Shown one piece after another: positions 920-32,684 of a stretch of 41,120 nt of DNA (its first letter is position 1; every line of letters starts with the position of its first letter). Source of the DNA: Planctomycetota bacterium. Its GTDB lineage: Bacteria; Planctomycetota; UBA11346. A program made the position numbers and the translations under genes. Location: assembly GCA_013696105.1 (NCBI GenBank), contig JACCZE010000401.1, positions 1-41,120 on the forward strand. The letters run 5' to 3'. The notes under the pieces were generated by a model that saw only the letters and a list, made by a program, of their open reading frames with translations, was not told the DNA's origin and made no database searches.

Positions 920-1899
920 CGCGGTCGAACGCTCCGATGCCGCTCGTAGGAGGTCCCACCGAAGCCTTCGGCGCCGAACGCGCGAGCGCGACGCCGGCAG
1001 CGACGCCGCAGCGACGCCGACGTGCACGACGTGCGCTACCTGCGCGTAAAGCCCCCGATCCGGCCGCCGTCGACGTCGGCCAGCTTCCGCTGAGCGCCCT
1101 CCAGCGCTGGTTCCATGGCGTGATCACTCATCCAGCGGGTATCGATGCGGCCTTGGTGGATGCCCGCATCGCTCCGCCGACCTGGCGATCCCCCTCGACC
1201 GGTGCGTTGATCGCGGAGACCAGCGGACTCGGCGTCGAGGATCGGCTGGGCGTCTACCATTTCGCCTACCGGGCGCGCCTCCTCGATTGCCTGGCCGACG
1301 ATTTCCCCGCGCTTCGGCATGCGCTGGGGCAATCGGCGTTCACCGGGCTCTGCGACGAGGTCATCCAGCAGCGCCCGTCGCGATCACCCAACCTCAACCG
1401 TTATGGCAAGCACCTGGTCGAGCATTGCTGCGAGCGCGACGCTACCGCGCTGCAGCGCTTCAGCGCGGACCTCGCTCGGCTCGAATGGGCGATGACTGAG
1501 GTGTTCCACGCAGCTGCGGCACCGACGCTGTCACTCGACGCCCTGCGCAGCATTCCCTTGGAGCGCTGGCACACAGCGTCCTTCACCCAGAGCGCGACCG
1601 TGACCACCCTGTCCTTCGCCTATCCCGTCAACGCCTACCTGCAGGCGTTTCGCGAGGATCGGTCGCCGGCGATTACCCGAGCGCGGTGGTCTGCGACGGC
1701 GGTCTACCGGCAAGGCTACCGCATCTGGCGCATGGACCTGACCCGTCCCATGTCCGATCTGCTCGAGCGGCTCTTCGCAGGCGCCACACTGGGCACCGCG
1801 CTGGAATCGCTGCCCGACGGAACGGATGGCCCGCAGGTGATGCGCTGGTTCACCGAATGGGTCTCGGGTGGTTTCTTCGCGACCATCTCGACCCGATGA
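916..1899 (+). CDS. DUF2063 (BufC-like) MNIO partner protein
   Basis: This is a 327-aa protein with an Arg/Pro/Ala-rich N-terminal tail (about residues 1-50) followed by a DUF2063 domain. The typical start of that domain, LQRWFHGVI, and the motif RLGVYHFAYRARL-like segment (here DRLGVYHFAYRARL) are visible. Proteins of this family sit beside DUF692 enzymes and are thought to bind the precursor peptide and present it to the MNIO enzyme. The family is often labelled DNA-binding in databases, which is probably misleading in this context. The gene overlaps the MNIO gene by 4 nt and is followed after 19 nt by a small cysteine-containing exported protein. The long basic N-terminal tail is not typical; a later start is possible, although no better ribosome site is obvious. 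Confidence 0.88.
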   Translation: MTRSNAPMPLVGGPTEAFGAERASATPAATPQRRRRARRALPARKAPDPAAVDVGQLPLSALQRWFHGVITHPAGIDAALVDARIAPPTWRSPSTGALIAETSGLGVEDRLGVYHFAYRARLLDCLADDFPALRHALGQSAFTGLCDEVIQQRPSRSPNLNRYGKHLVEHCCERDATALQRFSADLARLEWAMTEVFHAAAAPTLSLDALRSIPLERWHTASFTQSATVTTLSFAYPVNAYLQAFREDRSPAITRARWSATAVYRQGYRIWRMDLTRPMSDLLERLFAGATLGTALESLPDGTDGPQVMRWFTEWVSGGFFATISTR

Positions 1900-3303: not shown

Positions 3304-3668
3304 GGGATCTCCCGATCTTCGGTGATGATCGTTCAGCGACGACTGGAATGGCTGATGTCATCATGGGCCCGGATCCGGCTCCTGGGAATACCCGTCATGG
3401 TCGTGGACCTGCCCGTAATTGATCTGCGCGACCGCGGGACCGTCGCAGGCCATCGCAGGCCATCGCAGGTTTCGGCCAACGACCGGTCCCGTCTGGTCAC
3501 GAATCGTGCGCCGCTGGGTCCTGGAGGGTGGTCGCGGCCTGCGCGGTGCCGGTGTGGACCCCGACGTTGGCGCATCTGAAACACTCGGAGCGATGGGTCA
3601 CGGCGTGTACAGCTGGCCGTTCCCAGGGTATTGTCAGCTGCCTTGCTCCTCTCACCTGGCTCCACGTC
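3304..3668. other. Divergent intergenic region, PhyH / efflux operon
   Basis: About 365 bases separate the start of PhyH (minus) from the start of the efflux operon (plus). I see no convincing gene; the ORFs here are short and lack family features. Both promoters must lie here, but no -35/-10 pair stands out. The only distinctive element is the short 10-bp direct repeat listed separately. Confidence 0.6.
3443..3469. repeat. Direct repeat, 10-bp period, about 2.7 copies
   Basis: The unit TCGCAGGCCA is repeated at exact 10-bp spacing (TCGCAGGCCA, TCGCAGGCCA, then TCGCAGG). One helical turn of spacing places each unit on the same face of DNA, as in some operator arrays. It lies about 200 bases upstream of the efflux operon. 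Any regulatory role is inference. Confidence 0.6.
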
Positions 3669-5171
3669 GTGCCCATCTCCTTGAGCGCTGCTCCATTACG
3701 ACTCTGCCTGGCCGTCGCGCTGATCGCCGGCTGCGGCGGACGCCCAGCCCAGGTGGAGCCGCAACCGATCACCACGCAGGCCGACGCCCGGGTGCACGCT
3801 CCGCCGGCGCCGCCAGCTCCGGACGTCTCCAGCATCTCGCGCGCAGACTGCCTGCGCCTGGCGCTGGCCAACAACCGTACGTTCCGCATCCGCCACAGCG
3901 CCTTGGAGCGGGCGCGTTTCGGCCGGTCGATCGCCTACGCGCAGGTCTACGCACCGCGCCTGGATGCGACCTACACCATGGCGAACACCGATGACTCGGG
4001 TTCGGGCCGGGTCTCGGCCGTCGCCCCCGCGCTGGGATTCGACGTCGCACCTTTCGTCGCGCTCAACTATGCGCAGAACGGCCAGCCGGCGACCGGAGGA
4101 GACGCCTACACCACGTCCTACGGCGTGACGGTGTCACGCCGGCTGTTCAACATCCATGAGATGCTGCGCCAGCGCCTGCCGATCACCATCGCGGACAAGG
4201 AGTACTACGTCGCGACCAACAACGTCGTGCTCGAAGGCAAGAAACTCGCGCTCGAGACGACACGCACGTTCCTCAACGTGCAGCGCATCGAGGCACGCCT
4301 GCGCGTACGCAGCCGACGGGTCGAAGATGCCCGTGAATTCCTGGTCGTCGTCACCGATAGCGTCGCGCACGGCTTCAAGGCCCCGGTCGACGAGCTCAAT
4401 GCCTCGATCAACCTCAACCAGGCCGAGGCGGATCTGCTCGAGGAGCGAACCAATCTCCAGAACGCGAAGGAGCGCCTGCTGTCGCTGCTGGCCATGCCGC
4501 TCACCGCTCCGTTGGGGATCGTGCCCGAACGGATCTCCGATCAGGCTCCCGTCGCACCGGACATCGAGCGCGACGTCGTGCGGGTGAAGACGCATCACGA
4601 GGACCTGGGCAACCAGCTCGCCGAGATCGATCTCGAGATCGATCAGCTGCGCATCCAGCACGACCTGCTGATGCCGCAGCTGACCGCCGCATTCACCGCC
4701 CAGCACGACGAGAGCGGCATCGCAGCCTTCGACGGAAGCACGTCGGAGGCGGACATCTACAAGCTCACCTTCACCTACAATCTGCCGTTGGACTTCAACC
4801 GCGCCGCGCGTGCTCGCTACCACCAGATCCGGCGCCAGCTCGACGAGAAGTCCCTCGCGCTGCACGACGCGGAAGCGAACCTCGAAGGCCAACTGCGCTC
4901 GAGCGGCCGTCGCATCGAACAGCTGATCGCCACGGTCGAGTTGGCGAAACGTCGGCTGAGCGCCGAGCAGGGCCGCATGGAGGCCACGCTCAACCGCTAC
5001 AAGGCCGGAAACATCGATAACCTCGAGGTCACGCGTTCGAAGCAGGATCTCGACAACGCCGAGATCGCGCTGCTGGATGCCGAGATCAACAGCATCATCG
5101 CCGAATCCGAATACCGCGCGATCATGCCGCAGCCAGTAGCGCCCCAAGCGCCCCAAGCGCCGGCGCCATGA
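3669..5171 (+). CDS. TolC-like outer-membrane efflux lipoprotein
   Basis: This is a roughly 500-aa outer-membrane factor of the TolC/OEP family. From GTG 3669 the protein begins with a lipoprotein signal ending in LIAGC, then a Pro/Ala-rich linker. It continues with the family's helical repeats: CLRLALANNRTFRIRHS marks the first, and alternating long helices with beta-strand passages fill the rest. The C-terminus is Pro/Ala/Gln-rich. The ORF track starts at GTG 3528, but the extra 47 residues have no signal-like character. The gene overlaps the next by 4 nt (ATGA) and opens a five-gene run ending in MacB. It should form the outer-membrane channel for that system. The family is clear; the start has modest support because no strong ribosome site is visible. 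Confidence 0.85.
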   Translation: MPISLSAAPLRLCLAVALIAGCGGRPAQVEPQPITTQADARVHAPPAPPAPDVSSISRADCLRLALANNRTFRIRHSALERARFGRSIAYAQVYAPRLDATYTMANTDDSGSGRVSAVAPALGFDVAPFVALNYAQNGQPATGGDAYTTSYGVTVSRRLFNIHEMLRQRLPITIADKEYYVATNNVVLEGKKLALETTRTFLNVQRIEARLRVRSRRVEDAREFLVVVTDSVAHGFKAPVDELNASINLNQAEADLLEERTNLQNAKERLLSLLAMPLTAPLGIVPERISDQAPVAPDIERDVVRVKTHHEDLGNQLAEIDLEIDQLRIQHDLLMPQLTAAFTAQHDESGIAAFDGSTSEADIYKLTFTYNLPLDFNRAARARYHQIRRQLDEKSLALHDAEANLEGQLRSSGRRIEQLIATVELAKRRLSAEQGRMEATLNRYKAGNIDNLEVTRSKQDLDNAEIALLDAEINSIIAESEYRAIMPQPVAPQAPQAPAP

Positions 5172-7723
5172 AGCGCGGGCACTCGGCTGTGGTGAGCGCG
5201 CTGATAGCCGCTCTCGCAGGCTGCGGCGGCTCCTCCGCCGATCCCGTCGCCACCGTTACACAGGACCGGGTCGACCTGATCACCGTCGCCGCCTATCCAC
5301 TCGACCACCTCTCGCTGGTGATCGCCGGCACCGTTGCGAATCGCCAACCGGTCGGCCATTCCCTGCCGATGGCACGCGTCGCCATCGCGAGCCTAGCGCC
5401 CGAGGGGGAACCGATCGATGTCGGCGGATCCCTCGCCACGCTCGACCCGGGCCTGGCCCAGTATCTGATCGACCAATCGCAGCTGCGCATCCACGAGGAA
5501 GAACAGCAGATCCGTCTGACTGCGCTCAGGACGGCGTCCCAGCTCGATAGCCTGCGCGAACGCAAGACCGACCTCGAAACGCAGGTCGCGATCTACGACG
5601 CCGCCATCGCGGCCACCGGCTCGAAGGATTCCTCGCAGCTCGAGATCGCCCGGCTGCAACTCGCACAGGCCGAGGATGCATTCGCGCGCGCTGAGTCGCG
5701 GCTGAAGAATCTGGAGCCGCTGGTCGCTGCGGGCCACGAGAGTCCGGCGACGTTGGCGCGCGCGCGTGACGAGCGGACCACCGCGGACATCGGAGTGCGT
5801 CTGCCCAGGCTGCGATTGGAGCTGATCGAGCAGACGACCAATTCGGTGACCCGCAGCCGGCTGCAGATGTCGCGCGCCCAGACCCTCGAGGAGCTGGGTG
5901 GCCCGGAAGGAGACCGCGGCGTGGTCAGCGAGATCCGCGCGCTGGAGATCCTGCTCGAAAAGCAGGCTCTCATCAAGGGTGAACGCATCCAGGGGATGGT
6001 GCGCGACAACACCATCCGCAAGCAGGTGATCGATCACCCGCTGATCGAAGCGCGCGCCGCCGGACTGGTGCGCTACCGCCATTCGCTGGTGCGCGTCGGA
6101 TCGAAGCTCACCGCCTCGTTCTTCGCCTACGTGCTCGAAGACGAGCAGACGGTGGTGACGTTCGCTCTGCCGGACGAGTGGCGCGAGCTGGTACGGCCGT
6201 GGTCGCAGGACGACCCGAAGGCGGGCCTCGTCGACCTGCGCCTGGACGCGGTTCCCGGCAAGGTCTTCGTCGGCCGCGTCCTATCGATCGCCGCGGTGCC
6301 CGAAGCCGGCCGGGACGGCACGCGCGCGTTCGCATGCGCGGTCGCGCTCGACCGCGCCGATGCCGAGCTGCGCGTGGGCATGCGCGTCGAATGCGCGCTG
6401 CGCGTGCCCCTCGACCGTCCCATCGCGGTGATCCCGACCTGGTGCATCGATGACCTCCGGCATCCACGCGCGACCACCGCAGACGGCGAGCAGCGCCATC
6501 TCGAAGGTTATGCGGTCGGCCACGAATTCGTCGTCACCGCCGGCCTGTCGCCCGGCGATCGCATCGTGCCAGGTGGAGCCCGAGCCACAGCCGGAGCGCT
6601 GCGCCTGTCGGGAGTGCTCACTGCAAGTTCGTTCGTGCCGATCCGCCTGTCCTCGGGCGAGTGGGAGCTGCTCGAATCCGTGCCCGACGGCAGCCTGGTG
6701 AAGAAAGGCGACGTCGTCGCCCGGTTGAGCAAGTCGGTGAGCTGGCGAGACGCCGGCCAGTTCGCCTTCCAGGCCGAGTTCAACACCGCCGAGGCGCGCG
6801 CGAATCTGGCGATCGCCCGCATCACTGCCGAGAAGGACCTCGGGGGGGCGCTGGTCGCGTGGCACTTGGCCGCCATCCAGGTCGAGGGTGCGCGGCTCGA
6901 GCGACTGGTGGCCCGCTACGGGACCTACGACGAGTACGAAGCCCTGGCCGAAGGGGATCTCGGGCGTGCGCAGATCCGCTGGTCGCAGGCGCAGAGCGAA
7001 GCCGCGGATGTCGACGCCCCTGATACGGTCTCCGCCCGGTCGCTGAATGAACGCATGGGTATCCGCCTGCGCCTCGAGACGGCGCGCATCGCCCGCGATC
7101 GGGCGCGACTGGAACATGTCTCAGCGCTGCGCGCGCGCGATTACCTGTCGACCCGCGACAGCGAGGAGACCGTCCGCGCGGCCGAGGTGCGGGCCGCGTC
7201 CACCCGCGCCAGCTATAGCGTCGCACGATCCGCATTCCAGGCGGCGCTGTCCTGGGCGCAGGTGCGCTACCGGGACGAGCTCAATAGCCGCAAGTGGGCG
7301 CGCGAACAGCTGGCCGATGAGCGCGTGATCGCTCCGAGGGACGGACGCGTCTACCAGCGCCTGCAATGGAACGGCCGCCTGCTGCGGGTGGGAGACGCGG
7401 TGGAGACCTGGGAACCGTTCATGATGCCGATCGGCGGCGGGCGCCAGTTCATCGTCGAAGTGCCGGCTCGCCTGTTCGGCCGTTTCGTGGTCGGCGATCG
7501 GGTGCGCATCACGATACCCGTGCTCGGACCGGAGCCGCGCGACGGCTCCATCACCAAGGTCGGAGCATACTTTTCCGAAGGCGCCTCCGCCCGCGAAGAA
7601 CAGGCGACCCGCGGCACCATCGGCGTGAACGAGCGCGTGTTCCAGCTCACCATCGGCTTCGAATTGGACGAGCGCGAACAGGATCGCGCGGCTCCGGGGA
7701 CGACGGCATATGTCGACCTCTGA
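5168..7723 (+). CDS. Tandem (double) HlyD-type adaptor lipoprotein
   Basis: This 851-aa lipoprotein (lipobox LAGC, C19) looks like two membrane-fusion adaptor modules in one chain. Module 1 spans about 25-470: a lipoyl-like half (EPIDVGGSLATLDP), a coiled-coil hairpin (about 95-285), the returning half with a beta-barrel (LVRVGSKLTASFFAYVLE), and a membrane-proximal part (VGMRVECALRVPLD, SPGDRIVPGG). Module 2 starts near 480 (LRLSGVLTASSFVPIRL). It has a second lipoyl half (VPDGSLVKKGDVVARL), a second helical hairpin (about 520-715), and a closing half, VIAPRDGRVYQRL, leading to a final beta-barrel. Ordinary adaptors have one module of 350-450 aa. The gene overlaps its neighbours by 4 and 14 nt. 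Domain limits are judged by eye. The likely role is the periplasmic bridge between MacB and the TolC-like channel. Confidence 0.78.
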   Translation: MKRGHSAVVSALIAALAGCGGSSADPVATVTQDRVDLITVAAYPLDHLSLVIAGTVANRQPVGHSLPMARVAIASLAPEGEPIDVGGSLATLDPGLAQYLIDQSQLRIHEEEQQIRLTALRTASQLDSLRERKTDLETQVAIYDAAIAATGSKDSSQLEIARLQLAQAEDAFARAESRLKNLEPLVAAGHESPATLARARDERTTADIGVRLPRLRLELIEQTTNSVTRSRLQMSRAQTLEELGGPEGDRGVVSEIRALEILLEKQALIKGERIQGMVRDNTIRKQVIDHPLIEARAAGLVRYRHSLVRVGSKLTASFFAYVLEDEQTVVTFALPDEWRELVRPWSQDDPKAGLVDLRLDAVPGKVFVGRVLSIAAVPEAGRDGTRAFACAVALDRADAELRVGMRVECALRVPLDRPIAVIPTWCIDDLRHPRATTADGEQRHLEGYAVGHEFVVTAGLSPGDRIVPGGARATAGALRLSGVLTASSFVPIRLSSGEWELLESVPDGSLVKKGDVVARLSKSVSWRDAGQFAFQAEFNTAEARANLAIARITAEKDLGGALVAWHLAAIQVEGARLERLVARYGTYDEYEALAEGDLGRAQIRWSQAQSEAADVDAPDTVSARSLNERMGIRLRLETARIARDRARLEHVSALRARDYLSTRDSEETVRAAEVRAASTRASYSVARSAFQAALSWAQVRYRDELNSRKWAREQLADERVIAPRDGRVYQRLQWNGRLLRVGDAVETWEPFMMPIGGGRQFIVEVPARLFGRFVVGDRVRITIPVLGPEPRDGSITKVGAYFSEGASAREEQATRGTIGVNERVFQLTIGFELDEREQDRAAPGTTAYVDL

Positions 7724-10700
7724 TCCTCCGCATCGTTGCGCTCTGCTGCGTGCCGTCAGCGCGTCGCTGATGGCAGCGCTCATCATCCCGGCGGCGCTGC
7801 AGGCCGACGACGGCGTGTTCGTCGTGCCCCCCGCGCCGCATGAGGTGGAATTCGGATTCTCGGGAGAGAGCCAGGCAGATCGTGACCGCGTGACCGCGAT
7901 CAATGCGGGCGCGAGCGAGATGGTGGTGTCTTGGATGACTCCCAACGGCGCCCAGCTCGAGAAGGGCGACCGCATGATGGAGTTCGATACCGGCATCATC
8001 AGCCGGACGGTACCCGTCCTGGCCGCGGACCTGGAAGCCGAGGAGCGGCGACTGGTGGTCGGCGACCTGCGCATGGACAGCCAGATGCACGACCTGGTGG
8101 ACGAGCAGGAATCGCTGCGCGGAGAACTGGCGTCGTGCCGCGCCGCGATCGCCAGCGCCAGCACCGTCGACACCGGTCGCATCGCCATGCTCAAGGCAGC
8201 CTTCGACCTGGCGCTCCTACGCGCCGACGCCGCCGAGGGGGCGCTCGAACGCGCGCGCGTGCTGCATCAGGGCGGCCAGTCATCCGACCAGGATCTGGCG
8301 GCATCCGAGCAAGCCGCGGCGCTCGCGCGCATCGACTGCCGCGTGCCCGAGCTGGTGTGGAAGCGCGCGGAAGGACGCGTGGACACCTTCACGATCGACC
8401 GCCTGCGGTTGCGCGAGCGCCAATTGCGAGCCCAGCTCGGACTGGACGACGAGGACCGAGTGCTTCCCGACGAAGGGATCAACGCGCGCATCGCCGCGGC
8501 GCGCAAGCAGCAGCTCCGCCAGCACGATTCGAACGCCCTCCAGCGCGATAAGATATCGCTCAACCACCATGTCGCACTGCGCGATGCGTTCGACCATACG
8601 CCGATCGATTGGATCGAGATCACCGGGGCGGTGTCGCTGAAGGTGAACTTCCAGCCCAGGGATGCGCAGACTCCTGCGGGATTCCTTCCCGACACCGGAG
8701 GGGCGTTCGACGAAGCCCGCGGCTACGGCTGGCTGGAAGATGCGACCGCGGACATGCGAGCCAACGCCGCCGACGGCAAGCCGGGCTCGTCGCTCGCGCT
8801 CGTCCAGAAGCAGAACACCTGGCGCGCCGGGATCCCCGACGGCGTGTACCACGTGAAGATCGGTCTCGGGGACCGCGTCGATTGGGACGGGGCGGTGGTG
8901 CGGCTGGCGTCTGGCCTCGGCCCGACGCGCGGCGCCAACCACGAAAGCGCGCAGCAGGGTGCGCTGTTCGTCTCGCGCCGCATCAATGCCAAGGAATTCC
9001 CTACGGCAGAAGCCGACATCGCGGTAGTCGATGGACGCCTCGACGTGATTGTCGGCGACACCTGCGACCGTGCGGTGCGAGCTCCCGATCGCGGCCTGGC
9101 GGTCCATCGCGAGTGGATGCGGGTTGGATCGCGCACCCATTCGCCGAGCTCGCCCGTCACCTACTTCATGGATCCGCGCCATGTCAGCGTGAGGGCGCGG
9201 ATCCACCAGGATCTGGTGCCGCTGGTGCGCGCCAAAAGCGCCCCCGTGGTTGCTGACTCCGGCCCGACGGTCACCGCCGAAGCAGCGCAGCGCCGGCTCG
9301 CGACCGCGCAGGTCGCGGTTCGCACCCCCGGCGGCGACCGTTTGATCGGAGACATCAAGGCGGTCAGCAACCAGCCAGTCGCGCTGTCCCGCGCGCCCCA
9401 GGCCTGGACCGAAGGCAACCGCTCCCGCGATCTGGTCGCCAACGAGGTCGAGATCGCCTTCGCTCCCGAAGACGCCGCGAAGCTGCGCGCCGGCGAGGAG
9501 GTCTCGTGCCTCTGCCGGATCACCTTGCCGACGGGCATGGTCGCGCTTCCCGCGCACCTGGTCGCGATGGTCGACAACCGTTCATGGGTGCAGGAATCCG
9601 GCGCTCGCAGCCCTCGCGAAGTGACCGCATTCCGCATCGGCACCAAGACGGTCGTGCTCGCAGGAGTCGCTCCGGGCGTGCGCCTGATTCCACCCGATGA
9701 TCCGACGTCGGCGATCAGCGAGCGTTCGATCCCCGGCCGCGTCAAGGCGGGCACGCGCACGCCGGTGGTGCTGTCGAAATCCTGGGGGCGCATCAAGGAC
9801 ATGGTCGAGGACGGCGCACGCGTCACCAAGGGCGACGTCCTCATCACGCTGGTCAACCCCAGTCTAGAGGACCAGGTCCTCTCGCTCGAGCAGGACAAGA
9901 AGAAGGCCAACCACGCCTACCAGCTCGCCGCCGAGACGCGCCAGGTCAAGAGCGTGCAGGCCGGGATCGATCACAAGTCGAAGGTCCTGACCGAGAAACT
10001 CGCCCACCTCGCGCTTTCAGAAGCGCTCGAGATCGACCCTCTCGTGACCGCGCGCGCCGATGCTGTCACCGAGCGCTCGCGCCTGCTGGCCGAGGACAGC
10101 GCGCGGCGGCTCGAGGCTTCACAGGCGCTGCAGAAGTACGACCAGAACCGCTTCGCGGTCGCCGTCACCGAAGCTGCGCGCGCCGAGATCAGCGCGCGCG
10201 CTGCCGCGCTCGACCAGGCGGCGGCGGCGCGCGACCGCGATTGGTTCGCGCTGCGCGAGCGCGTCCATGCCTGGCAGGATGCGCTCAACGAGCTGTCGAT
10301 GCGCGAGGCGGCTTTCGCCCTGGCGCGGACCGAGGAGCAGGTCGCCGCCCTGACGGCGAAGCTGCGGCTGGCGCAGGCCCTGGAAGGAAATTGGGCCGAA
10401 CGGCAGTTCAACGAGGTGAAGCAGATGCGCGCGCCAGCCACGGGGCGGCTCTTCTACAAGGCCGGCTGGAACGATCAGGCCAACACCACCAGCAAGTACC
10501 AGCGCGATTTCCCGGTGTGGGGAGGCCAGCCCATAGCAGAGATCCTCGACATGTCGCAGTTGTCGTTTGAAGCCGAGTTTCCCGAGAGCCTATACCGCCT
10601 GGTGAAGGAGGGCATGGCCGTTTCCGTGCGCTTCCCGCAGTTCAACAACCGCCGCCTCGAGGGCACCGTCGGGACCATCGGCAAGGCCTTCACCCGTCCA

Positions 10701-10841
10701 TCGGAGGGCCGCGATACCGACGAGCGCGGCGGCTCCATCGCCATCGACCGGGTGTTCACGGTGACCGTGTCCTTCGCGACGCCGCCCGAGCTGCAGGACG
10801 TGCTGGTGCCGGGAACCAAGGGCGCGTTGGTGCTGCCATGA
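7710..10841 (+). CDS. Tandem HlyD-type adaptor with inserted malectin-like domain
   Basis: This is a 1043-aa exported protein with a signal peptide (about 1-32, cleavage near LQADD) and no lipobox. Residues about 40-290 form a first adaptor arm with long helices. Residues about 308-452 look like a malectin/galactose-binding-like carbohydrate domain, with the hallmarks VNFQP, PAGFLPDTGGAF, YGW, an NTWRAGIPDGVYHVKIGLGD stretch and a final GRLDVIVGD. The adaptor then resumes with beta-barrel-like segments. A second module starts near 668: a lipoyl half (VEDGARVTKGDVLITL), coiled coil (about 710-895), the returning half MRAPATGRLFYKAGW, and a barrel near LVKEGMAVSVRFPQF. I know of no adaptor with such an insert. 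The gene overlaps the previous gene by 14 nt and the next by 4 nt. Confidence 0.75.
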   Translation: MSTSDPPHRCALLRAVSASLMAALIIPAALQADDGVFVVPPAPHEVEFGFSGESQADRDRVTAINAGASEMVVSWMTPNGAQLEKGDRMMEFDTGIISRTVPVLAADLEAEERRLVVGDLRMDSQMHDLVDEQESLRGELASCRAAIASASTVDTGRIAMLKAAFDLALLRADAAEGALERARVLHQGGQSSDQDLAASEQAAALARIDCRVPELVWKRAEGRVDTFTIDRLRLRERQLRAQLGLDDEDRVLPDEGINARIAAARKQQLRQHDSNALQRDKISLNHHVALRDAFDHTPIDWIEITGAVSLKVNFQPRDAQTPAGFLPDTGGAFDEARGYGWLEDATADMRANAADGKPGSSLALVQKQNTWRAGIPDGVYHVKIGLGDRVDWDGAVVRLASGLGPTRGANHESAQQGALFVSRRINAKEFPTAEADIAVVDGRLDVIVGDTCDRAVRAPDRGLAVHREWMRVGSRTHSPSSPVTYFMDPRHVSVRARIHQDLVPLVRAKSAPVVADSGPTVTAEAAQRRLATAQVAVRTPGGDRLIGDIKAVSNQPVALSRAPQAWTEGNRSRDLVANEVEIAFAPEDAAKLRAGEEVSCLCRITLPTGMVALPAHLVAMVDNRSWVQESGARSPREVTAFRIGTKTVVLAGVAPGVRLIPPDDPTSAISERSIPGRVKAGTRTPVVLSKSWGRIKDMVEDGARVTKGDVLITLVNPSLEDQVLSLEQDKKKANHAYQLAAETRQVKSVQAGIDHKSKVLTEKLAHLALSEALEIDPLVTARADAVTERSRLLAEDSARRLEASQALQKYDQNRFAVAVTEAARAEISARAAALDQAAAARDRDWFALRERVHAWQDALNELSMREAAFALARTEEQVAALTAKLRLAQALEGNWAERQFNEVKQMRAPATGRLFYKAGWNDQANTTSKYQRDFPVWGGQPIAEILDMSQLSFEAEFPESLYRLVKEGMAVSVRFPQFNNRRLEGTVGTIGKAFTRPSEGRDTDERGGSIAIDRVFTVTVSFATPPELQDVLVPGTKGALVLP

Positions 10842-12907
10842 ACGTCCGCCTCATCGACAAGGCCATGCAGTTCACCAAGCGCGTGCGCTGGAATCGCCGT
10901 ACGGCTGGCATCGCTGCCGCGGTGGCCGGTGTCGTCGCGCTCGCGTTCCTGCGCCATCGTGAACCCGCCACTTTCTATTACGCATCCGAGACCGTGCGTC
11001 GCGGACCGGTGCAGCAGATCCTGCACGAGGCCGGCACCTTGAAACCGCGAGAGCCGGTGCTGGTGAAATGCGATTTCGGTGCGCGCATCCAATTCCTGGT
11101 CGAGGACGGGGCCTGGGTCGAGAAGGGAGAGACGCTGTTCATCCTCAGCGAGGAGGACGAGGTCAAGCGTGTCGCCGACGATCGCAACAACCTGCTCGGC
11201 GTCCGCCAGGAATTGCGGCTGGCGAGCATGCGCCGTCAGTTCGCCGAGGCATCTGAAGGGCAGAAGGCCTCCGCCGCCATGCGCACGTACGATCTGGAGG
11301 CGATCCGCTTCCGCATCCTCACTGCCAAGCCGGTGGGCGGCACCGAATTGATCCGCCTGCACGAGGCGCTGGTGCCGATCGAAGCCGAGACGGCGACGGT
11401 GCGCGAGGCCTTTGAGCGGGCGCAGGCCGCGTATCAGATCGCCTTCGACGCTCACCTCGACGCCGTCGATGCGGCCCAGTCCCACCGCGATGCATCGATG
11501 CGCGTGCAGGCGCGCATCGACGAACTGTCCGCCCGAGTCGACATCGCTGCGGAAGGGCTGAACGCGTCCGAGCAGGATGAGCGCGGGCGAGCGGAGAAGG
11601 ATCTGCCCGCGGCTCGCGACGAGATGGCGAGGCTCGCCGCAGGCGATGCCGCCCTGGCCAAGCGCCTGGAAGCAGCCCGTGCGACGCGCGACGCGGCGAA
11701 ACCGGCGCGCGATGAGCTCCAGGCCAAGCTCACCGAACGCGAATTGATGGAGGAGGATTACCACATCCGCATCGAGATCGAGAAGCGCGGACTGCCCTTG
11801 GCCAAATTGCGACTGGACGAGGAATCCGCGACCCTGGTGCTGGCCGAGTCCGAGCGCAAGCGTGACCAAGGTCAGCTCGCGTTCGCCGCAGGAGCCCTGT
11901 CGAAGACCGCCCTCGAGGACCTCGAAGCCGCGGTGCGCGCGAATGCCAGCCAGTTGCGTATCGTGCGCGAGAACGTGGCGATCGCCGAACGTCCCTTGGC
12001 TCCGGAGGTCCTGCTCGAGGCTCAGACCAAGCTCGACCGCATGAAGACCAAGGCGGACCAGGCGCAGGAAGCGCTCAAGCGCGCGCTCGCGATCCAGGAT
12101 CAGGAGATCGAGGTGCTGAAGGCGCAGGAAAAGCGCTGGACCTCGTCGATCGACAGCCGCAGCCGCCACTTCCCCTCCATGATCGAAGCAAACATCGAGT
12201 TCGCAGAGAAGGAACTCACCGCGCTCGATCAGGACGATGGCAAGCGCCGTTCGGACCTCACCGCCGAACTCGCGCGCATGCGCACCGCGCTCGAGGCCGC
12301 CAAGCTGACGCCGCCGAACGTCTACAAGGCGCCGGTCAGCGGCATCACCTGGGTGATGCGCGAGGGCGATCGACCGCGCCAAGCCGGCGACCGCGCGTGG
12401 GAGGAGGACACCCTGGTGGAGATCTATCCGCCCCAGGACATGGAGGTGGTCGCGAAGATCAACGAGGTCAACGTCAAGCACGTCGCCAAGGGCATGCGCG
12501 CCATGATCGACATCCCGTCGCTCGATCATCTCCGGCTGGTCGGCGACATCACGCAGGTATCGGGAATCGGCAAAGACAAGTTCGCCGAGTTCAGCGATAC
12601 CTGGGACAAGATCGTGTTCGCGGATGTCACCCAGTTCGAGGTGCGCTGCCGACTGTCCCAGACCCGGCAGGATTACCGCCAGGGGATGACCGCCCTGCTG
12701 TCGATCGTGGTCGGGGAGAAGCCCGACGCCTTGTGGTTGCCCCTGGGCGCGGTCACGCGCACCGGCGATGGTTGGACCGCCCTGGCCGGCGATGAACGCA
12801 GAACGGTCGCGGTCACCGGAGAGCCGTTCGGCGATGATGTGTTCATCGTCGACGGAGGCCTGCAGGAAGGCGACGTGGTGCAGGTGAAGCGGGTGGTGGA
12901 CCGATGA
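10838..12907 (+). CDS. MacA-like membrane-anchored adaptor with extended coiled coil
   Basis: This is a 689-aa single-module adaptor. One N-terminal membrane segment (about 23-42, GIAAAVAGVVALAFL) anchors it to the inner membrane. The first lipoyl half (FLVEDGAWVEKGETLFIL) is at about 85-105. A very long, charged, Ala/Glu/Arg-rich coiled-coil region fills about 110-490. The second lipoyl half (VYKAPVSGITWVMREGD) follows near 490. The beta-barrel and membrane-proximal domains (VKHVAKGMRAMIDI, LWLPLGAV, GLQEGDVVQV) end the protein. E. coli MacA is about 370 aa, so most of the extra length is coiled coil. It overlaps both neighbours by 4 nt and immediately precedes MacB, as macA does in classical operons. 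This is the adaptor most likely to contact MacB directly. Confidence 0.87.
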   Translation: MNVRLIDKAMQFTKRVRWNRRTAGIAAAVAGVVALAFLRHREPATFYYASETVRRGPVQQILHEAGTLKPREPVLVKCDFGARIQFLVEDGAWVEKGETLFILSEEDEVKRVADDRNNLLGVRQELRLASMRRQFAEASEGQKASAAMRTYDLEAIRFRILTAKPVGGTELIRLHEALVPIEAETATVREAFERAQAAYQIAFDAHLDAVDAAQSHRDASMRVQARIDELSARVDIAAEGLNASEQDERGRAEKDLPAARDEMARLAAGDAALAKRLEAARATRDAAKPARDELQAKLTERELMEEDYHIRIEIEKRGLPLAKLRLDEESATLVLAESERKRDQGQLAFAAGALSKTALEDLEAAVRANASQLRIVRENVAIAERPLAPEVLLEAQTKLDRMKTKADQAQEALKRALAIQDQEIEVLKAQEKRWTSSIDSRSRHFPSMIEANIEFAEKELTALDQDDGKRRSDLTAELARMRTALEAAKLTPPNVYKAPVSGITWVMREGDRPRQAGDRAWEEDTLVEIYPPQDMEVVAKINEVNVKHVAKGMRAMIDIPSLDHLRLVGDITQVSGIGKDKFAEFSDTWDKIVFADVTQFEVRCRLSQTRQDYRQGMTALLSIVVGEKPDALWLPLGAVTRTGDGWTALAGDERRTVAVTGEPFGDDVFIVDGGLQEGDVVQVKRVVDR

Positions 12908-14883
12908 GCGTCATCGAGATCAAGGAACTCACGCGCTCCTACCAGATGGGCGAGCACACCGTCCACGCGCTCAAGGGCGTGAACCTGACCATCGATGAGG
13001 GCGAATTCGTCGCCATCGTCGGTCCCTCGGGCAGCGGCAAGACCACGCTGATGTACATCCTGGGCTGCCTGGATCAGCCGAGCGCCGGAAGCTATCGCCT
13101 GTGCGGACACGAGGTCGCGCACCTCGACGACCGCCAGCTGTCTCGCATCCGCAACCGCGAGATCGGCTACGTCTTCCAGCAGTACAACCTGCTGCCAGAC
13201 CTCTCGGTGGTCGACAACATCGGCCTCGGACTCACCTATGCCGGCACCCCGCTCGCGAGCCGACGCGCGGCAGGCGCGGACCTCGCGCGCAGCCTGGGCC
13301 TCGAGCATCGCATCGCGCACACCCCGCGCGAACTGTCCGGCGGTCAGATGCAGCGCGTGGCGATCGCGCGCGGCCTGGCCTGCCGGCCGCACCTGATCCT
13401 CGCCGACGAGCCGACCGGAAACCTCGACACCAAGACCGGCGCCGAGATCATGGAGGTGCTCAAGCGTCTCAACGGCGACGGGCACACGGTCGTGCTGGTC
13501 ACCCATGATCCCAGCGTGGCCTCGCAGGCGAGCCGAGTGGTGCGCATCGTCGACGGCGAGATCGTCAGCGACGAACGCTCGCAGGCGGTCGGCCCGAAGC
13601 GCGAATCAGCGCGCGTCGAACCCGCGACCGGAGGGCGCGTCACCGACGCCGACGTCCTGCGCATCGCGCTACACGAAGGCATCCTCGCGCACAAGCTGCG
13701 CAGCTTCCTGACCATGCTCGGCATCATCTTCGGCATCAGCGCGGTGATCGCGATGACCGCGATCACCGAAGGCGGCAAGCAACGCCAGCTCGAACAGATC
13801 CGCCAGATCGGCATGAACAACATCCAGGTGCGCGGCTTGGATCTCGAAGGCTCGCGCCTGTCGCGCCTGCGCCGCATGAGCCCGTACGGCGTCGCGCTCA
13901 CTGACCTCGAGGCGGTGCGCACCTACGTCACCGGCATCGAGGCCGCCACCGCCTGGAAGGCGATCAAGGCCGAGGTGCGGCTGGGCGACAAGTCGGTCGA
14001 CGACGCCAATACCCTGGGCATCACCGGGGACTTCGAATCGGTGGTGAACTTCCACGTCGGCAAGGGCCGCTTCCTCGACGCGCGCGACGAGGCGACCTTC
14101 GCCCGCGTGTGCGTGCTCGGCGCGGGTGTGGCCAAGCGTCTGGGCCTCGATGGAGAAGGCGACGCCTGGCGCACGACCATCATCCTGGGCGATGAGCCGT
14201 TCACCGTGGTCGGGGTGATGTCTTCCAAGCGCTTCACCGAGAGCGACATCGCCGACGTCTCGATCCAGGACCGCAACCGCGACGTCTACCTGCCGTACGC
14301 CAGCCTGCGCACCTACTTCCGCAAGGAGGACCGCGCCAGCCGCTTGGATGCGATCTCGCTGCGCATGTCTTCCGATGAACGCCTGCTCGAACAGTCGCTG
14401 GCGATCAAACGCATCGTCGGCGACCTGCACAACGACGCCGAGGACTTCGCGATCTCGGTGCCGCTGGAAAGCCTGCGCCAGGCCCAGCGCACGAAGGAGA
14501 TCTTCAACGTCATCATCATCGTGATCGCAGCGATCTCGCTGATCGTCGGCGGCATCGGCATCATGAACATCATGCTCGCCACCGTCACCGAGCGTACGCG
14601 CGAGATCGGCATCCGCCGCGCCGTCGGAGCGAGCCGTCGCGACATCCTGCGCCAGTTCCTCGCCGAGGCCCTGCTGATCTCGCTCTTCGGCGGCCTGCTC
14701 GGACTGGCCCTCGGGCTGACCGCCGGCTTCCTGATCGAAGCGCTGTTCGGATTCTCGGTCGCATTCAACCTGTGGATCATGGCCCTGGCGACGTTGACCT
14801 CGATGGGCATCGGCGTGGTGTTCGGCCTATATCCGGCCTGGCTGGCGGCGCACATGAATCCGGTGGATGCGTTGCGGAATTAG
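12904..14883 (+). CDS. macB: MacB-type ABC transporter (ATPase-permease fusion)
   Basis: This 659-aa protein has the MacB layout and nearly the E. coli MacB length (648 aa). The N-terminal ATPase has Walker A GPSGSGKTT (about 40-48), signature LSGGQ (144-148), Walker B LILADEPTGNLD (about 164) and the switch THD (200-202). A first transmembrane helix (about 265-287) leads into a MacB periplasmic domain. The C-terminal FtsX domain carries three helices and the typical GGIGIMNIMLATVTERTREIG block (about 545-565). Such proteins are mechanotransmitters: ATP hydrolysis in the cytoplasm moves periplasmic parts that push substrate through the adaptor and TolC. It closes the five-gene operon, overlapping the MacA-like gene by 4 nt. 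The substrate (peptide, toxin, lipoprotein or glycoconjugate) is not evident. Confidence 0.95.
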   Translation: MSVIEIKELTRSYQMGEHTVHALKGVNLTIDEGEFVAIVGPSGSGKTTLMYILGCLDQPSAGSYRLCGHEVAHLDDRQLSRIRNREIGYVFQQYNLLPDLSVVDNIGLGLTYAGTPLASRRAAGADLARSLGLEHRIAHTPRELSGGQMQRVAIARGLACRPHLILADEPTGNLDTKTGAEIMEVLKRLNGDGHTVVLVTHDPSVASQASRVVRIVDGEIVSDERSQAVGPKRESARVEPATGGRVTDADVLRIALHEGILAHKLRSFLTMLGIIFGISAVIAMTAITEGGKQRQLEQIRQIGMNNIQVRGLDLEGSRLSRLRRMSPYGVALTDLEAVRTYVTGIEAATAWKAIKAEVRLGDKSVDDANTLGITGDFESVVNFHVGKGRFLDARDEATFARVCVLGAGVAKRLGLDGEGDAWRTTIILGDEPFTVVGVMSSKRFTESDIADVSIQDRNRDVYLPYASLRTYFRKEDRASRLDAISLRMSSDERLLEQSLAIKRIVGDLHNDAEDFAISVPLESLRQAQRTKEIFNVIIIVIAAISLIVGGIGIMNIMLATVTERTREIGIRRAVGASRRDILRQFLAEALLISLFGGLLGLALGLTAGFLIEALFGFSVAFNLWIMALATLTSMGIGVVFGLYPAWLAAHMNPVDALRN

Positions 14884-23350: not shown

Positions 23351-23422
23351 GTGTTCCCGGAATTTACGGACGAGGGCCTGCGAGCCACGGATAAGATCAT
23401 TTTGCTCAGGGGCTATCGCGAG

Positions 23423-23488
23423 CTGTTTGTGCAGGGGCTGTCGCCCCTACGGCCCGTGGACGGGCCTACCCCCGGGCTTTGTCGCGGG
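23423..23488 (+). repeat. Family B repeat, truncated unit B1
   Basis: This unit starts CTGTTTGTGCAGG and contains the first hairpin (AGGGGCTGTCGCCCCT), the variable hairpin GGCCCGTGGACGGGCC and the block CTACCCCCGGGCTTTGTCGCG. It then breaks off directly into unit B2. It lies between the divergent pyk and nrnA-like genes. Confidence 0.85.
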
Positions 23489-23636
23489 CTGTTTGTGCAG
23501 GGGCTGTCGCCCCTACGGCACGCGAGCGTGCCTACCCCCGGGCTTTGTCGCGGCTCGATCAGGACTGCGAGGCAGTCCTGATCGTGGCGGCATCGGCTGC
23601 GCCGATTGCATGCCGCCAGCGCCGCTCGGCGCCCGA
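23489..23636 (+). repeat. Family B repeat, full unit B2
   Basis: This is a complete unit, joined head-to-tail to B1. Variable hairpin 2 is GGCACGCGAGCGTGCC and variable hairpin 3 is ATCAGGACTGC/GCAGTCCTGAT. The constant hairpin TGGCGGCAT/ATGCCGCCA follows, and the unit ends with CGCCGCTCGGCGCCCGA. B6 ends the same way, also followed by GGAGAA. Confidence 0.9.
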
Positions 23637-29008: not shown

Positions 29009-29974
29009 ATGTACTTCACCGGATTCGCCGACGAGGCCGCCCACTCCATCGATGGCCAGATCCGCGCCACCAAGGAACTGGGCTGGCGATGGATCGAGTC
29101 GCGCAAGATCGACGGCGCCAACATCCACGATATCCCCGACCAGGCCTTCGACGCGGTGTGCGCCAAGCTCGAGGCCGCGGGCGTGGGCATCAACTGCTTC
29201 GGCTCGGCGATCGCGAACTGGGGCAAGAAGATCGATGAGCCCAACGAGCCGTCGATGGCCGAGGCCAAGCGCGCCATCCCGCGCATGCGCCGCCTGGGCA
29301 CCAAGCTGATCCGCGTCATGAGCTACGCCGTTCTGCCAGGGAAGCCCGCCCACGAGCAGATGGAGGACGAGCGCTTCCGCCGCCTGCGCGACCTGACCGC
29401 GCTGTTCCTCGACGCCGGCATCCAGCCGGTGCACGAGAATTGCATGAATTACGGCGGCATGGGCTGGCGGTACTCGCTGCGCATCGTCGAACGCGTGCCC
29501 GGACTCAAGCTGGTGTTCGACACCGGCAACTGCGTGCACAGCGACGACGTCGACGCTGCCGCGAGCGCGGATGGCAAGCGGCCGCGCCAATCGTCATGGG
29601 ACTTCTACACCAACGTGCGCGAGCACATCGCCTACATGCACATCAAGGACGCGCGCTGGGACGCGGCCGCGGGAGCCGGCATCCATACCTTCCCGGGCGA
29701 GGGCCAGGCCGACGTGAAGCGCATCGTCGCTGATCTGCTCGCGCGCGGCTATGACGGCGGATTCTCGATGGAGCCCCACCTGGCCGTCGTCCACCACGAC
29801 CCGACGCTGAGCTCGCCGGAATCGATCATGTACGCCAACTATGTGGAATACGGCCGCCGCTTCATGCGCCTGGTCGAAGAGGCTGTTAGTGCAGGGGCTG
29901 GCGCCCCTACGGCACGGAACGTGCCTACCCCCGGGCTTTGTCGCGGCTCGATCACTTCGGCTTCGCCTCCGTAA
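29009..29974 (+). CDS. Sugar phosphate isomerase/epimerase family TIM barrel (2), repeat-derived C-terminus
   Basis: This is a 321-aa TIM-barrel protein with a good GAGGT ribosome site before ATG 29009. Likely metal ligands lie in PVHENC, LVFDTGNC, YMHIKDARW and GFSMEPH. It is not closely similar to the preceding barrel, so the two may catalyse different steps. The natural domain ends around RRFMRLVEEA (residue 292). The last 29 residues are encoded by family B unit B3 (AGAGAPTARNVPTPGLCRG and on), so the repeat supplies a new C-terminus and stop. Whether the tail matters is unknown; the catalytic domain looks intact. Confidence 0.88.
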   Translation: MYFTGFADEAAHSIDGQIRATKELGWRWIESRKIDGANIHDIPDQAFDAVCAKLEAAGVGINCFGSAIANWGKKIDEPNEPSMAEAKRAIPRMRRLGTKLIRVMSYAVLPGKPAHEQMEDERFRRLRDLTALFLDAGIQPVHENCMNYGGMGWRYSLRIVERVPGLKLVFDTGNCVHSDDVDAAASADGKRPRQSSWDFYTNVREHIAYMHIKDARWDAAAGAGIHTFPGEGQADVKRIVADLLARGYDGGFSMEPHLAVVHHDPTLSSPESIMYANYVEYGRRFMRLVEEAVSAGAGAPTARNVPTPGLCRGSITSASPP

Positions 29975-30006
29975 TCGTGGCGGCATCGGCTGCGCCGATT
30001 GTATGC
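29883..30006 (+). repeat. Family B repeat, unit B3 (short form, partly coding)
   Basis: This unit ends early at GTATGC and passes straight into B4. Hairpin 2 is GGCACGGAACGTGCC. Hairpin 3 (GATCACTTCGGC/GCCTCCGTAATC) is imperfectly paired. Its first 92 bases are translated as the C-terminus of the upstream isomerase-like gene. Confidence 0.88.
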
Positions 30007-30151
30007 CTGTTTGTGCAGGGGCTGTCGCCCCTACGGCCCGTGCCGGGCCTACCCCCGGGCTTTGTCGCGGCTCGATGTCGTCGGGAACCTCCGACATCGT
30101 AGCGGCATCGGCTGCGCCGATTATATGCCGCCACCGCCGCTCGGCGCCCGA
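30007..30151 (+). repeat. Family B repeat, unit B4 (full form)
   Basis: This is a complete unit with hairpin 2 GGCCCGTGCCGGGCC and hairpin 3 GATGTCG/CGACATC. The constant GCGGCAT/ATGCCGC hairpin and the CGCCGCTCGGCGCCCGA end are present. Confidence 0.88.
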
Positions 30152-30152
30152 G

Positions 30153-30276
30153 CTTTTTGTGCAGGGCTGTCGCCCCTACGGTGCCTGAGAGGCGCCTACC
30201 CCCGGGCTTTGTCGCGGCTCGTTTTCAGCGGTAAGCCGCTGAAAACGTGGCGGCATTGCCTGCGGCGATTGTATGC
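30153..30276 (+). repeat. Family B repeat, unit B5 (short form)
   Basis: This short unit ends at GTATGC, like B3. Hairpin 2 is GGTGCCTGAGAGGCGCC, with one G-T wobble. Hairpin 3 is a perfect 11-bp stem, GTTTTCAGCGG/CCGCTGAAAAC, quite different in sequence from the other copies. Confidence 0.88.
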
Positions 30277-30423
30277 CTGTTTGTGCAGGGGCTGTCGCCC
30301 CTACGGCGCCTGAGAGGCGCCTACCCCCGGGCTTTGTCGCGGCTCGATGTCGTCGGGAACCTCCGACATCGTGGCGGCATCGGCTGCGCCGATTATATGC
30401 CGCCACCGCCGCTCGGCGCCCGA
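30277..30423 (+). repeat. Family B repeat, unit B6 (full form)
   Basis: This complete unit ends the four-unit array about 126 bases before the ammonium transporter. Hairpin 2 is GGCGCCTGAGAGGCGCC and hairpin 3 is GATGTCG/CGACATC, as in B4. It is followed by GGAGAA, as B2 is. Confidence 0.88.
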
Positions 30424-30549: not shown

Positions 30550-31890
30550 ATGAGCCATCTGCTGAAATCCCTCTGTCCGCCGCTGGGCGCGCTGCTCCTG
30601 GCGTGGCTGCTCATTCCTGCGACAGCCGGCGCGGCCGAGCCGCCGGCCATCGATTCGGGCGATACCGCCTGGGTGCTGGTGGCCACGGCCTTGGTCCTGT
30701 TCATGACCATCCCGGGACTGTCGCTGCTGTATGCGGGCATGGTCCGGGCGAAGAACGCACTGTCGATCTTCATGCAGTGCTTCGCCATCACCAGTCTGGT
30801 GACCGTGCTGTGGATGGCCTACGGCTACAGCCTGGCCTTCGATACGACCGGCCAGAGCGAAGGCCAGATCACCCTGCATTCGTTCATCGGCTCGTTCAGC
30901 AAGGCCTTCCTCGCCGGAGTCACGCCGACCAGCGCCGTCGGCACCATCCCCGAATCGGTATTCATCTGCTTCCAGCTCACCTTCGCGATCATCACGCCCG
31001 CGCTGATCATCAGCGCGTTCGCCGAACGCGTGAAGTTCTCGGCGATCATGATCTTCACGGCCATCTGGCTGACCGTGGTCTACCTGCCGATCTGCCACAT
31101 GACGTGGTCTGGGCCCGGCGCGCTGTTCGTCGATTTCGGCGTCTTCGATTTCGCCGGCGGCTGCGTGGTCGAGACCTGCTCGGGAGTGTCCGGACTGGTC
31201 GCGGCCCTGGTGGTCGGGCGGCGCATGGGATATCCGCACACGCCGATGCTGCCGCATTCGGTGGCGCTCGCGGTGGTCGGTGGCGGCATGCTGTGGGTCG
31301 GCTGGTTCGGCTTCAACGCGGGCAGTGCGGTGTCGGCCGGCGGCAAGGCGGGCATGGCGATGCTCACCACCCATGTCGCCTCGGCGGTCGCGGCGTGCGT
31401 GTGGATGGGCATCGAGTGGATCCGCTTCGGCAAGCCGAGCGCGCTCGGCATCGTCACCGGTTCGCTCGCGGGACTCGTCGCCATCACGCCCGCCTGCGGC
31501 TACGTCGAGCTGCCGGGGGCGATGGCGATCGGCGCCAGCGCCTGCGTGGCCTGCTACCTGTTCGTCTCGGTGCTCAAGCGCCGCTTCGGCTACGATGACA
31601 CCCTGGACGTGTTCGGGGTGCACGGCATCGGCGGCATCGTCGGCACCATCCTGCTCGCCTGCTTCGCCACCGAGGCGATGGTCGGCAAGCCCGTGGACAT
31701 GGCCGCGCAGCTGTGGGCCCAGACCAAGTCGGTGGCGATCACCATCGCATGGGCCGCTGCGGGCACCTTCATCGTGATCAAACTCATCGACCTCACCATG
31801 GGCCTGCGCGTGCCTCCGCATGTCGAGGCAGCGGGCGTCGACCTCGACCAGCACAACGAGGTCGCGTACAGCCTCGAAGAGCGCGTCTGA
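30550..31890 (+). CDS. amt: Ammonium transporter (Amt family), Glu-type twin-His variant
   Basis: This is a 446-aa Amt protein from ATG 30550, with a signal-like first segment (about 1-29) and about 11 membrane helices. Family signatures are SLLYAGMVRAKNALS, FAIITPALI, HMTWSGPGALF, GWFGFNAGSA and DVFGVHGIGGIVGT. In E. coli AmtB the first pore histidine lies in AGGTVVHIN; here the aligned segment is AGGCVVETC, giving Glu208. The second pore histidine is kept (H358 in GVHGIGG). No P-II (glnK) gene is adjacent. The ORF track's start at 30247 lies inside the B repeats and is rejected. The transport function is secure; the pore chemistry is probably altered. Confidence 0.95.
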   Translation: MSHLLKSLCPPLGALLLAWLLIPATAGAAEPPAIDSGDTAWVLVATALVLFMTIPGLSLLYAGMVRAKNALSIFMQCFAITSLVTVLWMAYGYSLAFDTTGQSEGQITLHSFIGSFSKAFLAGVTPTSAVGTIPESVFICFQLTFAIITPALIISAFAERVKFSAIMIFTAIWLTVVYLPICHMTWSGPGALFVDFGVFDFAGGCVVETCSGVSGLVAALVVGRRMGYPHTPMLPHSVALAVVGGGMLWVGWFGFNAGSAVSAGGKAGMAMLTTHVASAVAACVWMGIEWIRFGKPSALGIVTGSLAGLVAITPACGYVELPGAMAIGASACVACYLFVSVLKRRFGYDDTLDVFGVHGIGGIVGTILLACFATEAMVGKPVDMAAQLWAQTKSVAITIAWAAAGTFIVIKLIDLTMGLRVPPHVEAAGVDLDQHNEVAYSLEERV

Positions 31891-31973: not shown

Positions 31974-32684
31974 ATGCCCGACTGGCTCCATCAGCTGTAT
32001 TCCGAAGAAGGCATCCAACGCCTGATCTACGCCTTCGGGCTGGTCGCCATCATTGGCATCGTCTTCGCCGAGACCGGCCTCCTGATCGGGTTCTTCCTGC
32101 CGGGCGACAGCCTGCTGTTCATCGGCGGGGTGCTGTGCGCAATCAACTTGCTCGATCCTGGCCAGCCGCCGCCGCTGGCTTACTGGACCATGACCCTCTC
32201 GCTGTGCGTCGCCGCGATCGCCGGCGATTGGCTGAACTTCTGGATGGGGAAATGGACCGGATCGCGGATATGGGAACGGCGCGACGGTCGGTTCTTCAAG
32301 CGCCGCTATCTGCTCGAAGCCAAGCGCTTCTACGAGCACCACGGCGGAATCTCCCTGGCCCTGGCCCGGTTCATCCCCATCGCCCGCACCTTCGTGCCGT
32401 TCGCCGCCGGCATGTCGCGCATGCCGTTCCGCTCGTTCATGTTCTGGAACATCGGCGGCGCGGTGACCTGGGTGTTCGCGGTGGTCAGCGCCGGCTATTT
32501 CTTCGGTCAGGTGCCGTTCGTGCGCAAGCACCTCGAGCTGATCATCCTGTCCATCGTCTTCATCTCCGTGCTGCCGGTAGCGGTGGCGGCCTTCAAGCGC
32601 TGGCGCTCGGGTCCGCCCGCGGAGCTCGCCGAGGACGCGGCCGCCGCCGCGGCCGCCGGGCAGCGCACGGCACCTCCACCCTGA
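31974..32684 (+). CDS. DedA-family (VTT domain) membrane protein
   Basis: This is a 236-aa membrane protein of the DedA family. Typical features are the re-entrant motif FAETGLLIGFFLPGDSLLFIGG, GDWLNFWMGKW and the conserved arginine block ALARFIPIARTFVPFAAGMSRM. DedA proteins help recycle undecaprenyl phosphate or other lipids across the inner membrane and support envelope stability. The Ala-rich tail (EDAAAAAAAGQRTAPPP) is unusual but low in complexity. The start is ATG 31974, 83 bases after amt. Confidence 0.93.
   Translation: MPDWLHQLYSEEGIQRLIYAFGLVAIIGIVFAETGLLIGFFLPGDSLLFIGGVLCAINLLDPGQPPPLAYWTMTLSLCVAAIAGDWLNFWMGKWTGSRIWERRDGRFFKRRYLLEAKRFYEHHGGISLALARFIPIARTFVPFAAGMSRMPFRSFMFWNIGGAVTWVFAVVSAGYFFGQVPFVRKHLELIILSIVFISVLPVAVAAFKRWRSGPPAELAEDAAAAAAAGQRTAPPP

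Follow-up and report, generated by a model that had tools for sequence, protein, structure and literature searches.

A planctomycetal ammonium transporter with a natural glutamate at the first pore-histidine position, and the recurrence of this form in a few bacterial clades

The 41,120-nucleotide stretch of Planctomycetota DNA analyzed here (the window) encodes what, by its sequence, is a normal-looking bacterial ammonium transporter (Amt) in which one of the two pore histidines is naturally a glutamate. We assign a probability of about 0.6 to the reading that this protein is a functional Amt with kinetics resembling those of the fungal Mep1/Mep3 transporters, acting as a paralogue beside a conventional AmtB–GlnK system. 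The residue itself, the fold by homology, the conserved remainder of the pore, purifying selection between close Glu-type relatives, the recurrence and independent origins of the glutamate form, and the loss of glnK linkage are documented below.

The Amt family is well known, as is the swap itself, from fungi and from engineered mutants. The bacterial clades that carry it look undescribed, since the published statements that we found confine glutamate to fungal Mep1-like proteins: the twin-histidine motif is described as conserved across Amt–Mep–Rh except in these proteins (PMC7048316, PMC3647058). A literature search of open-access papers returned no natural bacterial glutamate variant.

The window encodes a full-length Amt

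The amt gene (30550..31890, forward strand, as are all features located below) is a complete open reading frame, from the ATG at 30550 to the stop at 31890, and encodes a full-length Amt of 446 residues. PF00909 is the sole domain match; its profile is matched over positions 1–399 of 399 (356 bits, cut-off 23.2; E = 2.1e-106), and no fused signaling domain is present. The best PDB matches are chains of E. coli AmtB, and the first of 28 found by phmmer is 2NOW, whose chain is AmtB with glutamate at position 168. A structure model calculated from a 26-row alignment (pLDDT 85.9) has the 11-TM Amt fold, with AmtB as the top Foldseek matches (target-normalized TM 0.94, rmsd 2.0).

The N-terminal segment (MSHLLKSLCPPLGALLLAWLLIPATAGAAEP, 30550..30640) resembles a signal peptide and may be one. 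Residues 1–30 have a pLDDT below 50 and the aligned PDB chains start at about residue 31. An extra N-terminal segment rich in Glu, Ala, and Lys precedes the first membrane helix in two other Amts, the host's His-type protein (L001) and L157 from clade B (see below), where it looks like a coiled coil.

The pore motif of TM5, D-F-A-G-G-C-V-V-E-T-C-S-G, is encoded at 31147..31185 and begins with D200, the equivalent of AmtB D160; F-A-G-G-C-V-V-E-T-C-S-G occupies bases 31150–31185. Phmmer alignments to 2now and 9cs5, together with multiple alignments, place Glu208 (codon GAG, 31171..31173) at the position of AmtB His168, and the phmmer and multiple alignments likewise place His358 (codon CAC, 31621..31623) at that of His318. 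The twin-histidine motif is incomplete, with H318 kept and H168 replaced by glutamate, exactly as the preliminary description had proposed for the two pore positions. That description had also considered a glutamate at a neighboring position with the histidine retained; the alignments do not show this, and misalignment is thereby ruled out. A sequencing or assembly error at Glu208 is rejected because nine further host-family genomes share the glutamate.

The remaining functional positions of AmtB are conserved in the aligned protein, namely F107, W148, D160, W212, F215, S219, T273, and H318. These include the complete periplasmic NH4+ site (W148, S219, and D160) and the Phe gate (F107 and F215), all identical to AmtB.

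Distribution of the glutamate form

The host genome, a draft in 481 contigs with a completeness of 79%, contains a second Amt, L001, with the ordinary histidine motif VVHISSG. A single marginal match to PF07596 was too little on its own to assign the host's phylum. A strict DNA motif search finds a Glu-type Amt in 10 of 23 genomes of the host family (f1) versus none of the 369 genomes sampled elsewhere in the phylum; the few non-Glu matches of this search in the phylum sample are Asp motifs in sequences that do not look Amt-like. The stricter pattern was used because an initial motif with a fixed Phe, FAGGxVVE, gave 32 matches that were mostly non-Amt, with only 4 of 30 loci, all from f1, aligning to Amt. 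A loose pattern accepting any polar residue was dropped from counting owing to too many chance matches, and a scan of viral contigs returned one motif match, the translation of which does not look Amt-like.

The 95 aligned Amt copies of 80 close relatives represented by GTDB contigs uniformly have histidine at the site. This all-His set suggested that the Glu form is exclusive to one family, an idea ruled out by the proteobacterial Glu form found in a whole-genome search, which covered 50 genomes of the 80-relative set. The listed motif matches in these 50 named genomes, classified by reading, include 67 with His, one with Glu, and two that are not Amt. Matches in a sample of 195 Verrucomicrobiota genomes, also classified by reading, comprise 65 His, 1 Glu, and 2 non-Amt, which gives 132 His to 2 Glu for the two samples from other phyla combined. 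A true Glu-type Amt is present in 1 of 339 genomes of a Pseudomonadota sample, the centre genome of that sample, and in 9 of 120 genomes of the proteobacterial order to which this genome belongs (clade C). The nine clade C proteins and the single Verrucomicrobiota protein (L222) were all verified as Amts; each retains H318, D160, W148, and the two Phe residues of the gate.

Judged from these sequence samples, glutamate at AmtB position 168 is rare across bacteria and fixed in a few clades. The preliminary description had called the change uncommon in bacteria and had named a high frequency among related bacteria as a finding that would refute it. The first statement is borne out for bacteria at large (67:1, 65:1, and 1 in 339) and fails for the nearest relatives and for one proteobacterial order, where the form is locally common (10/23 and 9/120 genomes).

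Independent origins and purifying selection

A phylogenetic tree was built with the motif columns excluded. The window Amt and seven other sequences form clade A (8 rows, support 100/97), while clade B (2 rows, support 100/100) lies within the classical His-type group of the host family. Joining clades A and B is rejected by the AU test (p = 3.2e-5), as is joining the proteobacterial clade C with clade A (p = 1.2e-5) or with clade B (p = 9.7e-5). L222 has no firm placement and, with an AU p of 0.317 for its joining to clade A, is not established as a fourth independent origin. Because the trees and AU tests keep clades A, B, and C apart, the sequences support at least three independent bacterial origins of the Glu form, and perhaps four. 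A change from His (CAY) to Glu (GAR) takes two base changes. In the tree, which contains no Mep1 sequence, the window Amt nests among bacterial Amts and its closest His-type relatives are bacterial.

Purifying selection is observed between close Glu-type relatives, with dN/dS values of 0.23 for the clade A pair L144/L145 and of 0.07–0.13 for clade C pairs; the value of 0.57 for the window gene versus L144 is uninformative at their high divergence. The repeated origins, together with the loss of the glnK link described below, suggest that the swap is adaptive.

Position 171 and other changes at the site

Clade A differs consistently from its His-type relatives at few positions, the clearest of which, besides E208, is Ser211 (31180..31182), aligned with AmtB position 171. 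All Glu-type Amts examined have Ser or Cys at this position; of the 107 His forms from outside the classical group of the host family, 95 have Ala. Within that group, Ser is found in 10 of 10 His forms. The association of Ser/Cys with glutamate is therefore not fully independent evidence, as Ser was in place before the glutamate of clade B arose. Since Ser211 lies three residues past Glu208 on the same helix, it may form a hydrogen bond to the carboxylate or face it. We consider it possible, at somewhat below even odds, that a Mep1-like Amt has evolved in bacteria repeatedly and by convergence, combining the glutamate swap with a hydrogen-bonding Ser/Cys three residues on, typically in a paralogue freed from the glnK unit.

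A further change concerns Ser219 of the NH4+ recruitment site, which is Gly in all nine clade C Glu-type Amts (L200 and L214–L221) and likewise in the clade A member L151.

Loss of glnK linkage and genomic neighborhood

No P-II gene is detected by tblastn anywhere in the 41-kb window, in line with the earlier remark that glnK is not adjacent. Among host-family loci with a visible flank, glnK is located downstream within about 160 bp of 10 of 12 His-type amt genes versus none of nine Glu-type genes (Fisher p = 2.2e-4, in a test that ignores relatedness). The two His-type genes lacking glnK are L152 and L153; the host's own His-type gene, L001, reaches the contig end where glnK would be expected. 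No P-II gene is found near clade C amt genes in the loci examined. One exception to the lack of linkage is observed in the Verrucomicrobiota sample, where a Glu-type amt (L222, 634–2985) has glnK-like genes on both sides, ruling out a universal rule by which glutamate means no glnK.

The C-terminal tail of the window Amt aligns to AmtB through residue 444 and is largely conserved at the level of the overall alignment. Because this tail contacts GlnK in AmtB, control of the window Amt by GlnK in trans is possible.

In 11 of the 15 host-family genomes examined, a gene read as accA (acetyl-CoA carboxylase alpha) is followed immediately downstream by a divergent P-II gene (L170 3835–5362 on contig C309 in the host genome; L223–L236 in relatives). 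Elsewhere, P-II proteins are known to control acetyl-CoA carboxylase.

The window amt is surrounded by sugar-metabolism, DedA, and ABC genes. A VTT/DedA-domain membrane protein (31974..32684; PF09335, E = 1.8e-21) starts 83 bp past the amt stop codon. No homologue was found near the other f1 amt genes, and this gene is probably a mere neighbor. Likewise, no conserved neighbor was found across the Glu-type amt loci; since the flanking genes vary between genomes, they suggest no partner for the Glu-type Amt. A GC-rich repeat of about 66 nt (GTGCAGGGGCTGTCGCCCCTACGG...CCTACCCCCGGGCTTTG) occurs in six copies at 23416–23547 and 29876–30335, four of which crowd the ~680 bp immediately upstream of amt. 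It is possibly a dispersed mobile or REP-like element and may influence amt expression.

At the left end of the window (41–1899), a gene of the MbnB/TglH/ChrH family (PF05114) overlaps a DUF2063 gene, a typical RiPP-modification pair whose precursor gene may lie beyond the window's left edge. A gene cluster at 3528–14883 codes for a MacB-like ABC transporter, an outer-membrane efflux protein, and three HlyD-like proteins, whose lengths of 851, 1043, and 689 residues are unusual.

Proposed mechanism and alternative explanations

By analogy with AmtB, NH4+ would be recruited at W148, S219, and D160, pass the F107/F215 gate, and be deprotonated, with NH3 and H+ moving inward along a lumen predicted to be lined by E208 and H358. 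Glu208 would probably render the pore more hydrophilic and, as in the engineered AmtB-H168E and in fungal Mep1/Mep3, would probably speed up turnover, reduce the apparent affinity, and alter the pH response. In the cell, this paralogue would serve alongside a conventional His-type AmtB and, located outside an amtB–glnK unit, it would probably be expressed independently of GlnK. We infer the kinetics, the pH effect, the division of labor, and the expression of the window Amt from such analogies.

AmtB H168E is active, with a Km of 12.9 versus 0.8 mM, a faster current decay, and no K+ current (PMC9040831); it is the only one among 14 AmtB histidine variants still moving methylamine, and its structure is changed only locally (PMC3647058). 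Mep2 H194E is also active, its Vmax being higher and its pH optimum shifted, and restoration of the histidine in Mep1 yields an inactive protein (PMC7048316). The statement of the preliminary description that fungal Mep1/Mep3 carry glutamate and that the residue affects kinetics and pH dependence agrees with these reports (PMC7048316, PMC9040831, PMC3647058). The inactivity of the restored Mep1 suggests that natural Glu-type Amts may have compensating residues that restore affinity, and the size and direction of the affinity change are uncertain for this reason.

The conserved remainder of the pore would also fit a near-neutral swap, in which glutamate serves equally well in place of histidine given the surrounding sequence, leaving an ordinary high-affinity Amt whose kinetics are unchanged. 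The Ser/Cys found three residues on in all Glu forms could buffer such a change, and the engineered H168E structure is kept apart from local changes (PMC3647058). However, the swap, which requires two base changes, hardly occurs elsewhere (132 His to 2 Glu), yet it has at least three origins, and its fixation in clades A, B, and C looks like selection. Altered kinetics in the published cases (PMC9040831, PMC7048316) add to the reasons for which we regard a near-neutral swap as unlikely. The fixation of glutamate through the clades, with dN/dS of 0.07–0.23 between close Glu-type relatives, makes a decaying or defective paralogue extremely improbable, even if the host's His-type Amt could cover the function; moreover, the 446-residue frame is open and the site and gate residues are all kept.

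The altered pore might instead pass K+ or other cations, or have methylammonium or other amines as its main substrate. Twin-histidine variants carrying Ala or a pair of acidic residues let K+ through, but no K+ current could be measured for AmtB H168E or H168D (PMC9040831). As every complete Glu-type Amt examined also has its second histidine intact, a leaky or less selective pore appears improbable. As a second Amt copy unlinked from glnK, the window protein could also be an ammonium sensor or transceptor that binds, barely conducts, and signals via a partner. Amt-derived sensors do exist, and 6eu6 and Sd-Amt1 are found among its matches, at 26% identity. A bare Amt frame with no fused signaling domain, variable neighbors of which none is conserved across Glu-type loci, and the finding that the fungal Glu forms are the non-signaling ones (PMC7048316) make this role distinctly doubtful.

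If the reading of a convergently evolved, Mep1-like class of Amt is true, bacteria would display a yeast-like split between a tightly gated, Mep2-like scavenger and a high-flux, pH-shifted transporter of the Mep1/3 type. The bacterial Glu clades, their close His-type relatives, and, in several genomes, His-type paralogues provide ready comparison pairs for testing the role of the residue in a bacterial protein evolved to use glutamate.

Comparison with known systems

The window Amt shares with E. coli AmtB (PF00909) the 11-TM fold, the S1 site, the Phe gate, H318, and the C-terminal tail, at about 44% identity over ~400 residues. It differs in having glutamate for His168 and no adjacent glnK. 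The same swap in a bacterial Amt pore is present in engineered AmtB H168E (2NOW; PMC9040831, PMC3647058); in contrast to this laboratory mutant of one protein, the Glu forms described here occur naturally, as clades, and have Ser or Cys at position 171.

Kuenenia Ks-Amt5 and Shewanella Sd-Amt1, two sensor Amts, are likewise diverged bacterial copies derived from Amt. The window protein has 26% identity to them and, unlike them, lacks a sensor domain. The twin histidines are conserved in Ks-Amt5 (PMC10433425).

With the fungal Mep1/Mep3 type (ScMep1, ScMep3, and CaMep1), the window Amt shares a natural glutamate at the first twin-histidine position and a His-type paralogue in the same cell. These fungal proteins establish that the twin-histidine motif is characteristic of, yet not required for, Amt/Mep/Rh membership (PMC7048316). 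ScMep1 is reported to have glutamate near the second histidine as well (PMC9040831), whereas the second histidine is kept in the window Amt. In PDB and Foldseek matches, the window protein is closer to AmtB than to Mep2. Since the bacterial swaps, unlike those of the fungal type, are nested in clades of bacterial Amts, with His-type bacterial proteins as relatives, the sequences make convergence likelier than membership in the fungal Mep1/Mep3 lineage.
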